From NCBI RefSeq assembly GCF_029167365.1, contig NZ_JARFNM010000001.1, positions 186,001 to 250,000 on the forward strand: a stretch of DNA of 64,000 nt, written 5' to 3'. Within the stretch, counting starts at the first letter, position 1. Every line of letters begins with the position of its first letter. A model generated the notes under the pieces. It was not told the origin of the DNA. It saw only the letters and a program-made list of their open reading frames with translations, and searched no databases. Source of the DNA: Amygdalobacter nucleatus. Lineage in GTDB: Bacteria; Bacillota; Clostridia; Saccharofermentanales; Fastidiosipilaceae. Positions 56,300 to 58,847 of the stretch are shown piece after piece. The translations under genes and the position numbers were made by a program.

Positions 56300-56368
56300 C
56301 TACCTGTATCGTTTGAACATACGCTTATAACTTTTCTTATAAGCATTAGTGAACTTGAGCTTGTACAT
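56300..56368 (-). pseudogene. Truncated YafQ/RelE-type toxin
   Basis: On the minus strand, an ATG overlaps the antitoxin stop (TGATG). It opens MYKLKFTNAYKKSYKRMFKR followed by YR and a TAG, 22 codons in total. The opening matches the N-terminus of YafQ toxins (MYKLKFTxxFKKDYKRxxKR), which are about 90 residues. The catalytic histidines and C-terminus are missing, and the downstream DNA shows no further match. The toxin is therefore dead and the neighbouring antitoxin is an orphan. Confidence 0.75.
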
Positions 56369-56643
56369 CAGTCAGACAACAGAGCTTGCTTTAGTTCTTC
56401 CACAGAAGTATAAGCGTGCGTGTCAGGATCCCTGGAAATTCTTCTGCCTTCTTCTATTGCAGCCAACGTTTCGGCATTAAACTTCGGTAGTTCTACATTA
56501 AAAGGTAAACCACCATGTAAAATGCACTGACGAAGGAAGATGTTCACAGCACTGGACATATCAATGCCTAGTTCGTTGAAGAGCGAAATTGCTTTTTGTT
56601 TGGTTCGGGAATCAATGCGAATTTGCGTAGGACTTTTAGCCAT
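56368..56643 (-). CDS. RelB/DinJ-family antitoxin
   Basis: The protein is 91 residues from the ATG at 56643 behind AAGGAGCTGATATT; a longer in-frame start at 56688 lacks a ribosome binding site. The N-terminal ribbon-helix-helix reads TQIRIDSRTKQKAISLFNEL, then GIDMSSAVNIFLRQ, typical of DinJ. The C-terminus, which normally wraps the toxin, is acidic (SVEELKQALLSD). DinJ represses its own operon. The partner toxin is truncated to 22 codons downstream. Confidence 0.9.
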   Translation of the reverse strand: MAKSPTQIRIDSRTKQKAISLFNELGIDMSSAVNIFLRQCILHGGLPFNVELPKFNAETLAAIEEGRRISRDPDTHAYTSVEELKQALLSD

Positions 56644-56962
56644 AATATCAGCTCCTTTCAAGATGATCCTGATACAAACGGTATACATGTCAAGCAGAAA
56701 ACGACTGATCCATTCTATTTATTCTGTTAGAGGTTTGGAGTAGGTTCAGAGTGAGCTAATAACAACTTAACTCGTAAAAGCGTATCTTCTCTACTTCATG
56801 CGCTCAAGCTATGGGTTATACTAGCTATACGAATTAAAAAGCACGCCATGCTATATATCAAAGTAGCACGTATGTGTCGTAACTTTTATATTAGTGTAGA
56901 TGCCAAGGATTAACTAGCTGGGTGCAGCGCTTAAGCTTAGAGAAGAATTATTTGAGGTCAAA
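56644..56962. other. Intergenic region
   Basis: This stretch lies between the antitoxin (minus strand) and the esterase remnant (plus strand). It presumably carries the antitoxin promoter. I see no open frame with coding character, no RNA gene and no convincing repeat. Confidence 0.4.
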
Positions 56963-57430: not shown

Positions 57431-57493
57431 ATTGCCGCAAATGGGGAGAAAATAGTTTGTTAAAGGCGTTATCCGCTTAGTATTTTCTTTCAA

Positions 57494-57624
57494 TTATAGT
57501 CGACAAATAGCGAAAAAGTTGTGTTGCGCTTCGACTATAGCCGATAAAAATCAAGAAATTGCATATTGTTTCGATTATAATAGAAATGCATAGAGCGTAT
57601 ATAAAACTTATAGATTATAATCGA
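57494..57624. promoter_or_regulatory. Four TCGAYTATAR boxes upstream of the AAA ATPase
   Basis: TTATAGTCGA (57494-57503), TCGACTATAG (57531-57540), TCGATTATAA (57571-57580) and TTATAATCGA (57615-57624) are four copies of one 10-base motif in alternating orientation, with starts 37, 40 and 44 bases apart. The last one abuts the ribosome binding site GAAAGGAG of the ATPase. Such regular spacing suggests a cooperative operator, and the ATPase locus may regulate itself (inference). Confidence 0.6.
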
Positions 57625-57638
57625 AAGGAGATACAGTT

Positions 57639-58847
57639 ATGGCCTATATCTTGCGCAAAAAATATTTCAATCAAGTTTCCCCTTTCATTGGCAAACCAGT
57701 TGTGAAAGTGTTCACAGGTATGCGTAGAGTGGGTAAGTCCACCTTGCTGGAAATGATTCAGTCTGAATTACTGATAGAAATTCCTAAAACGAATATTATT
57801 CATGTCAATTTAGAATCTGGCCAATACTTATCTGTCCAAACTGATTTAGACTTACACCAATTAATCCAAGAGAGGACAAAGCAAGTCCAAGGGAAAATAT
57901 ATTTTTTCTTTGATGAAATTCAGTTAGTCACACACTGGGAACGCGTCATCAATGCCTTGAGAGTCGATTATGATTGCGACATCTACATCACTGGCTCCAA
58001 CGCAAGTTTGTTATCTAGCGACCTTGCCACCTTGCTGGCTGGACGTTACGTCAACTTTGAAATTCTGCCTTTTACTTTTAGCGAATTTGTCGAGCTGTAT
58101 CAAGTCTTGAATTTAAGCGTTCAAGAGCTGTTTCAATTGTATGTGAAGATAGGCGGTATGCCTTCACTTCATTATTTTAATGGGGAAGCAGAAGCGAGCT
58201 TCAAATATTTGAATGACATCTACAACACCGTTGTTGTTAAGGATGTGCTTGAATATAATGCGATTCGTGATGTCGATTTGTTTAACCGCATTTTGCTTTT
58301 TTGCTTGGAAAACATTGGTCAGACCTTTTCAGCCAATAGTTTGCGTAAATATTTTGCAAGTGAAGGGCGTAAAGTCTCAGTCGATACGATTCTAAATTAC
58401 TTAAGTTTTTGTCAGGAATCTTATCTTTTGAAAAAAGTGCCTCGTTATGATCGCATTGGCAAAAAGTTATTGTCAGTCGATGAAAGATACTATCTTACCG
58501 ACCACGGATTCAGACAGGCAGCTGGCTTTTCGAATTTTACTAATATCGAACATGTTTTAGAAAATATCGTCTATATCGAGCTTTTATCGCGTGGATTTCA
58601 AGTGCAAGTAGGGCGGGTGAATGAGAGAGAAATAGACTTCATTGCGACTAAACAGGGTAAAACTGAGTATTACCAAGTATCCTATTTGTTGGCTAGCGAA
58701 GAGACTCGTAAGCGAGAATTCGGCGTCTATAATGCTGTTAATGATAATTATCCTAAATATGTTTTGTCCATGGATCAGATTGATTTTTCACAAGCTGGAA
58801 TTATTCACAAATACTTGCCTACTTTTCTCTTGGAAGAGGGAGTATAG
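57639..58847 (+). CDS. AAA ATPase with DUF4143 domain
   Basis: The protein has 402 residues. The AAA_14 domain carries Walker A GMRRVGKST near residue 30, Walker B-like IYFFFDEIQLVTHWE and sensor-1 DIYITGSNASLLSS. The C-terminal DUF4143 region (about 200-380) has NALRVDYD-type helices, and SRGFQVQVGRVNEREIDFIATKQGKTEYYQVSY, a nuclease-like E-x-D-F/QxxY pattern. These stand-alone ATPases are common and often sporadic in anaerobes. Their role is unclear and defence or stress roles have been suggested. The ATG follows GAAAGGAG with repeated motifs upstream. Confidence 0.9.
   Translation: MAYILRKKYFNQVSPFIGKPVVKVFTGMRRVGKSTLLEMIQSELLIEIPKTNIIHVNLESGQYLSVQTDLDLHQLIQERTKQVQGKIYFFFDEIQLVTHWERVINALRVDYDCDIYITGSNASLLSSDLATLLAGRYVNFEILPFTFSEFVELYQVLNLSVQELFQLYVKIGGMPSLHYFNGEAEASFKYLNDIYNTVVVKDVLEYNAIRDVDLFNRILLFCLENIGQTFSANSLRKYFASEGRKVSVDTILNYLSFCQESYLLKKVPRYDRIGKKLLSVDERYYLTDHGFRQAAGFSNFTNIEHVLENIVYIELLSRGFQVQVGRVNEREIDFIATKQGKTEYYQVSYLLASEETRKREFGVYNAVNDNYPKYVLSMDQIDFSQAGIIHKYLPTFLLEEGV

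Follow-up and report, generated by a model that had tools for sequence, protein, structure and literature searches.

Palindromic boxes in a 40-bp register upstream of DUF4143 ATPase genes of the PDLC04787 branch: a candidate private operator

Introduction

PDC-S01, a PADLOC candidate for single-gene phage defence, is described as an ATPase fused to a member of the PD-(D/E)-X-K superfamily; it is reported to rank fourth among the commonest defences in prokaryotes, and experimental validation is pending for most PDC candidates (PMC12988326). The published passages on it mention neither an operator nor autoregulation. Three further papers bear on the family: PDC-S01 is reported to be the individual defence locus met most often in rumen genomes (PMC13356809), RNA from a Thermus gene with AAA_14 and DUF4143 motifs rises 6.6-fold when a plasmid and Argonaute are both present (PMC4406477), and COG1373 is listed among the genes that gut bacteria share by transfer (PMC10782964). 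Among open-licence papers we found no description of operators of the kind reported here for DUF4143, COG1373 or PDC-S01 ATPases.

The ATPase considered here is encoded in a 64-kb stretch of Amygdalobacter nucleatus DNA (the window) and is a full-length match to the PADLOC model PDLC04787, making it a defence candidate by sequence. The closest solved structures to its predicted model are two archaeal AAA+/STAND-like proteins, SSO1545 (PDB 2fna; VIA-align Z 16.8, 3.9 Å over 269 residues) and PABY2304 (PDB 2qen; Z 16.7, 3.5 Å over 268 residues), at 17-18% identity and in alignments that stop near residue 297 and do not cover the tail. We know of no operator array for either protein.

Results

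The region upstream of the ATPase gene contains the following elements.

57490..57503, box 1, near-palindrome TCAATTATAGTCGA with one mismatch to TCGAYTATARTCGA; exact 10-mer at 57494-57503 on the minus strand
57531..57544, box 2, near-palindrome TCGACTATAGCCGA; centre 41 bp beyond that of box 1
57571..57584, box 3, near-palindrome TCGATTATAATAGA; centre 40 bp beyond that of box 2; TATAAT inside at 57576-57581
57611..57624, box 4, near-palindrome TAGATTATAATCGA; centre 40 bp beyond that of box 3; TATAAT inside at 57616-57621
57624..57630, plus strand, plausible ribosome binding site AAAGGAG, read from the sequence
57639..58847, plus strand, ATPase gene, 402 amino acids, AAA_14 and DUF4143, PADLOC PDC-S01 (PDLC04787), from profile matches

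The first-pass annotation had reported four TCGAYTATAR boxes within 131 bases, and four exact matches are indeed found between 57494 and 57624: at 57494-57503 (minus strand), 57531-57540 (plus), 57571-57580 (plus) and 57615-57624 (minus), with no other mismatch-free match in the 64-kb window. Each 10-mer belongs to a 14-bp near-palindrome (consensus TCGAYTATARTCGA, one mismatch per box), of which it forms the better half. The alternating orientation that had been described does not hold, since the 10-mers run minus, plus, plus, minus and the boxes are near-palindromes; the impression arose because only the better half of each palindrome had been read, and even that order is not alternating. 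A spacing near four helical turns was roughly correct: successive centres are separated by 41, 40 and 40 bp, which at 10.5 bp per turn makes about 3.8 turns. The last box does adjoin the ribosome binding site, ending on the first base of AAAGGAG (57624). The TATAAT of box 3 is a possible -10 hexamer; no good -35 was found upstream of the TATAAT in the window's boxes.

The motif is not equally common elsewhere in the genome (1.61 Mb), which has 11 exact 10-mers, four of them in the array, against 59 for a reversed control pattern. With the rate set by the other seven genomic copies, the Poisson probability of four 10-mers in 131 bp is 4e-15. When up to two mismatches to TCGATTATAATCGA were allowed, nine places were found in this genome, and a TCGA-type regulon is disfavoured there because three of the nine lie in this array.

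The window ATPase matches Pfam AAA_14 (PF13173) with 114.4 bits (cut-off 27, E 4.7e-33) and DUF4143 (PF13635) with 56.4 bits (cut-off 28.1, E 3.9e-15). PDLC04787 matches residues 2-400 of 402 over profile positions 9-409 of 412 (E 2.6e-148) and was the best PADLOC model for all eight sampled members of the window's subfamily, one of which, L133, comes from a clade without a clear operator. Two sampled DUF4143 proteins outside the subfamily were assigned to PDLC04790 and PDLC04786. Sequence searches of the window ATPase gave no match in the PDB at E<=1 and none in NCBIfam at E<=0.01. The gene is mobile, judged by where its relatives occur: 214 of 72,556 plasmid records match the ATPase at E<=1e-40, 170 of them from Acinetobacter, as do 15 of 50,697 phage records at E<=1e-20. 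The protein is 79% identical to one from Gardnerella (L034), a member of another phylum, and the nearest Mageeibacillus copy, in a metagenome-assembled genome (MAG), is 57% identical, a comparison that suggests recent transfer. A RelB-type antitoxin gene (PF04221, E 1.7e-13) is located near the ATPase gene at 56368-56688 on the minus strand.

A first set of relatives comprised 13 loci, the closest four and nine more distant. Three of the closest four carry the same boxes at 40-bp spacing: two boxes in Gardnerella (79% identity), three in a Spirochaetia MAG (59%) and two in Lactococcus hodotermopsidis (48%). The sequence of the fourth, L036 (57%), stops 45 bp upstream of the gene start, and L040 is likewise cut off. 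None of the other eight relatives of the 13, at 43% identity or less, has a TCGA-type array. Among named plasmids, three TCGA-type boxes spaced by 39-40 bp precede the Peptoclostridium acidaminophilum copy (40.6%) and a single one precedes the Ilyobacter polytropus copy (42.4%); the best upstream self-match falls at 39 or 40 bp in 5 of 12 named-plasmid loci. The check proposed with the first-pass annotation, whether the same boxes precede other DUF4143 ATPases, came out largely in its favour: the array recurs in three of the closest four, farther homologues frequently show a different palindrome at that same pitch, and the motif is uncommon elsewhere in the genome. Many homologues, on the other hand, have no array.

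The register was examined in 117 homologues, consisting of the 13-locus set plus genomes of the class and phylum, by comparing the last 200 bp upstream of each gene with itself (22-mers, at least 15 matches). Repeats occurred at an offset of 40 bp in 40 genes, at 39 in 10, at 41 in 6 and at 80 in 7, and every other offset from 25 to 120 was seen in 0-5 genes; dinucleotide shuffles of the same upstream sequences gave an expectation of 2.0 at offset 40. Set against 176 other genes (42 from the window and 134 from the fetched loci), counts at offsets 39/40/41/80 were 10/40/6/7 in 116 ATPase genes and 4/2/2/0 in the controls, whose highest count was 7, at offset 36. The enrichment at offset 40 (40/116 vs 2/176) has a Fisher p of 3e-16. 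When 35 protein clusters (60% identity) were weighted equally, offset 40 scored 14.2, 39 scored 3.2 and 41 scored 2.7, with a median of 0.4 and a maximum of 2.6 for offsets outside 39-41. Boxes chosen by palindromy alone (51/116 genes) gave the same pitch in both directions: similarity to upstream DNA is highest at 40 bp (10.14 of 22, followed by 8.2 at 41), as is similarity to downstream DNA (8.08 of 19, followed by 6.69 at 42). At the threshold of the self-comparison 76 of the 116 homologues have no 40-bp repeat, and in one clade, of about 15 genes, no clear operator is seen.

The upstream analysis took 90 of the 94 listed matches, leaving out G119, G239:C6, G185:C8 and G144:C80; also left out were L088 (no start codon) and L036 and L040 (less than 60 bp upstream), and nothing usable was obtained for L016 and L017. 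Gene starts of L049 and L039 were set late, by 18 and 105 bases, so their box-to-gene distances are off. Score cut-offs defined the genes entering the operator tests: 80/117 for the Mantel test, 63 for covariation and 51/116 for palindrome-only boxes.

In other DUF4143 subfamilies a repeat at 40 bp was found in one of 28 usable genes, at 33 in three and at 32 in two; 9 of the 37 loci in this test had no usable gene start or ATPase motif. Because of this low count we limit the claim to the window's subfamily: the operator pattern appears to hold for most clades of the PDLC04787 branch and not for PDC-S01 as a whole. Members of one other subfamily (L010, L204 and L205, of which L204 belongs to PDLC04786) have upstream repeats of their own at 32-33 bp instead of 40. 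In a third subfamily, L185 (PDLC04790), L187 and L190 have an inverted repeat like GGCTA...TAGCC that reaches from the -10 region as far as the ribosome binding site, and L198 has a repeated AGGCTAAAATA...TATTTTAGCCT upstream. The Methanobrevibacter homologue L039 (41% identity) has a different upstream repeat at 41 bp; the register may thus reach into the Archaea.

The box sequence, by comparison of upstream regions, shifts with the protein clade while the pitch stays constant. Idealised box types along the protein tree include TTTTTTCTNNNNTGAGAAAAAA, TTTTGCGGTTATAACCGCAAAA, TTTATCAGTTATAACTTATAAA, TTTTCAGTATACTGAAAA and, in the window, TTTCGATTATAATCGAAA; a TATA core is present in 28 of the 63 boxes. 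Mean operator similarity was 14.30 of 20 for 145 pairs from different genomes with at least 60% protein identity, 10.67 for 21 pairs of same-genome paralogues (30-53% identity) and 10.60 for 2806 different-genome pairs at 30-54% identity. Boxes of paralogues within one genome are therefore no more alike than those of unrelated pairs, and the box seems to track the protein and not the genome. A Mantel test of operator against protein gave rho 0.21, reached in 0 of 1000 permutations (80/117 genes). Among 49 pairs with at least 75% identity, 16.2 of 20 box positions match, compared with 12.0 and 12.7 in the adjacent spacers and 10.0 in DNA 60 and 100 bp upstream; since the box outlasts both, its likeness exceeds what shared descent of the whole region would give.

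Many genes of the subfamily have one to four palindromes, set in the 40-bp register, that overlie the promoter or lie immediately 5' of it, and most of the homologue boxes displayed abut a -35 hexamer on its upstream side. An earlier half-box test at the -10 had used boxes picked partly for their 40-bp repeat and was redone with palindrome-only boxes. With these, the best -10 hexamer begins 35-39 bp past the box centre in 29 of 51 genes, a count made without a shuffle control. Together with the 40-bp similarity to downstream DNA, this position indicates that the -10 hexamer tends to fill the next slot of the register. An RNA leader element was considered and is disfavoured by argument, as the box sits just 5' of a -35-like hexamer in most homologues displayed.

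In the one clade that was scanned genome-wide, hardly any operator site lies away from the ATPase gene. All 10 genomes of this TTTTTTCT clade have the 26-bp operator (up to three mismatches) at the ATPase; the only other site is a weak one in G275. Its reversed control gave three hits over the ten genomes, and a TTTTTTCT-type regulon is disfavoured across them. Elsewhere, privacy was judged by counting motifs in five genomes, that of the window and four more. With one mismatch allowed in the TCGA type, the two sites of the spirochaete genome both lie at the ATPase, the L036 genome has one site, Gardnerella has one of two sites at the ATPase and Lactococcus two of four.

Working in reverse, from box to gene, we scanned 391 genomes of the class for TCGA-type pairs and obtained hits in six (the reversed control gave eleven single hits), of which those in the window's genome and G206 lie at the ATPase and that in G083 is taken for chance. 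G702, of the same genus as G206, has two boxes at the same site, with flanks 91.3 and 92.4% identical, where 58 bp replace the 1284 bp that hold the gene and the proximal box in G206. G077 has three and G144 two perfect boxes, with no intact ATPase gene within the 15 kb read; about 4.5 kb from the G077 array there is a 45-residue match to the end of such an ATPase. Arrays of the TCGA type without an ATPase gene are as follows, in three genomes.

L262:7188-7282, TCGA-type array
L263:7218-7271, TCGA-type array
L264:6381-6433, TCGA-type array; at this site the relative L265 has the gene, which is absent here

Such solitary arrays may be what is left after loss of the gene, or targets in their own right. 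None of the 36 array loci from a scan of viral sequences matched any of the nine query ATPases, and most are taken for chance. Two viral contigs (L237:826-879 and L241:1615-1668) each have a TCGA-type pair, palindromic and with matches on both strands, but no ATPase, and share a similar exonuclease-like gene.

The AlphaFold2 model of the whole ATPase (pLDDT 87, pTM 0.88) and a second model of residues 206-402 (pLDDT 88) predict an ORC/STAND-like AAA+ module followed by a winged helix and a PD-(D/E)xK-like alpha/beta tail, with the last two placed as follows.

58254..58508, plus strand, predicted winged helix, codons 206-290; helices at 212-224, 232-241 and 248-260, low-confidence loop at 273-278
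58536..58844, plus strand, PD-(D/E)xK-like fold, codons 300-402, from models and alignment; lysine missing from its customary position (QVSY)

By structure comparison of the model, the AAA+ module is nearest to SSO1545 and PABY2304, followed by NLR, CED-4 and ORC/Cdc6 ATPases. In the winged-helix part pLDDT is mostly about 90, with a low value in the wing loop, and the first part of the 206-402 model matches winged helices of Fur, PerR, Zur, PadR-like and Zalpha proteins at a modest Z of about 7.5-8.7; this domain is presumed to be the DNA-binding part of the ATPase. The second half resembles the Can2, Cdn1, Card1, XisH and VRR_NUC nucleases with Z of about 8, near the level of common arrangements; taken together, the matches of both parts span a Z of about 7.5-8.8. 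The catalytic motif of PD-(D/E)xK enzymes consists of D, E/Q and K, with K normally two residues after E/Q. In the ATPase, D333 and Q346 are invariant in A3, and a lysine two residues past Q346 is absent from all six aligned sequences. Covariation between half-site bases and protein columns did not single out the winged helix: none of the top 20 columns fell in the recognition helix (0.9 expected; 63 sequences, 29 effective), and two of the top 20 fell in the whole winged helix (4.3 expected; 29 effective sequences).

Discussion

We propose that the boxes are a private operator of the ATPase gene, through which the ATPase cooperatively represses its own expression by means of its winged helix, and give this reading, drawn from sequence comparison and predicted structure, a probability of about 0.7. 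Several results count against it: covariation is not enriched in the winged helix, 76 of the 116 genes lack the 40-bp repeat, the clade of about 15 genes shows no clear operator although its member L133 matches PDLC04787, three genomes have arrays but no gene, and no good -35 precedes the TATAAT of the window's boxes. The first-pass annotation had left the choice between a dedicated regulator and self-binding by the ATPase; self-binding is favoured because the box follows the ATPase phylogeny, the boxes of paralogues in one genome differ, and a winged helix is predicted within the protein. A separate regulator, either the host's or carried along with the gene, could also bind the boxes and control the ATPase gene. 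Palindromes by promoters are typical of ordinary repressors, and no covariation of the winged helix with the operator was seen, both of which would suit such a protein. Yet every clade would need a regulator of its own that travels with the ATPase across phyla, and no constant neighbour was present in the annotated named-plasmid regions (11 of 12 regions). The unlike boxes at paralogues of one genome are also hard to reconcile with it, as are the divergent G062 paralogues L058 and L107, each of which has its own palindrome in a single intergenic region by palindrome score (for L107 the joint score chose another, weak box instead). We consider a separate regulator unlikely.

The boxes might alternatively be a target on which the ATPase acts for a purpose other than transcription: they could work as a partition-like site, mark where a mobile gene lands or leaves, or be the target of a nuclease. 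The ORC/STAND-like architecture with a PD-(D/E)xK-like tail, the occurrence of the gene on plasmids, and the solitary arrays in G077, G144 and G702, the last at the site where G206 has array plus gene, are all compatible with this idea. However, a register tied to the -10 in 29 of 51 genes and boxes that mostly abut a -35 among those displayed fit promoter control, and the usual nuclease lysine is not found at its customary position, so that a non-transcriptional target seems improbable to us. Hardly any weight is given to chance, that is, to AT-rich palindromes and repeated -10-like hexamers that have no function. The window's boxes do contain TATA, and boxes 3 and 4 TATAAT, but the 40-bp peak is absent from dinucleotide shuffles and from other genes, a TATA core is found in fewer than half of the boxes (28/63), and boxes are better conserved than spacers.

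Under autorepression by the ATPase, its winged helices, probably as a dimer, would bind each palindrome, and neighbouring bound units would cooperate at the 40-bp pitch. Occupancy of the slot over the -10 hexamer would shut the ATPase's own promoter, and the AAA+/STAND-like module, through its nucleotide state or a sensed cue, would set or release the array. A box just upstream of the -35 would suit an activator too; we favour repression on the ground that the -10 is itself part of the register. More tentatively, the PDLC04787 branch as a whole might consist of self-addressed AAA+ switches, in which each paralogue reads only its own box as an ATP-gated oligomer that extends from the -10 outward at 40-bp pitch and stays self-silenced until a cue remodels the ATPase; solitary arrays would then be scars of lost switches or further targets. 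We regard this wider scheme as possible and somewhat doubtful.

A clade-specific operator in a fixed 40-bp register would be a first molecular handle on PDC-S01, offering a defined DNA ligand for each paralogue and a reporter for the releasing cue. It predicts that paralogues sharing one cell do not cross-talk. If the proposal is true, a solitary mobile gene brings its own control into any host, which would explain how it stays regulated in new hosts.

Two kinds of known regulator invite comparison. The maltose-system regulation structure 8bob, which we take to be MalT, was the third-ranked Foldseek match to the ATPase model, with weak global similarity (TM 0.32). MalT is an ATP-dependent STAND regulator that acts on DNA sites and activates other genes, whereas the target of the window ATPase appears to be its own gene. 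Autorepressors of the Fur, PadR and Zur-like kinds likewise have palindromes near their own promoter and a similar winged-helix fold. Unlike these proteins, the window ATPase has its predicted winged helix inside an AAA+ ATPase with a nuclease-like tail, and across the clades of its subfamily the boxes differ in sequence but hold to a pitch of 40 bp.
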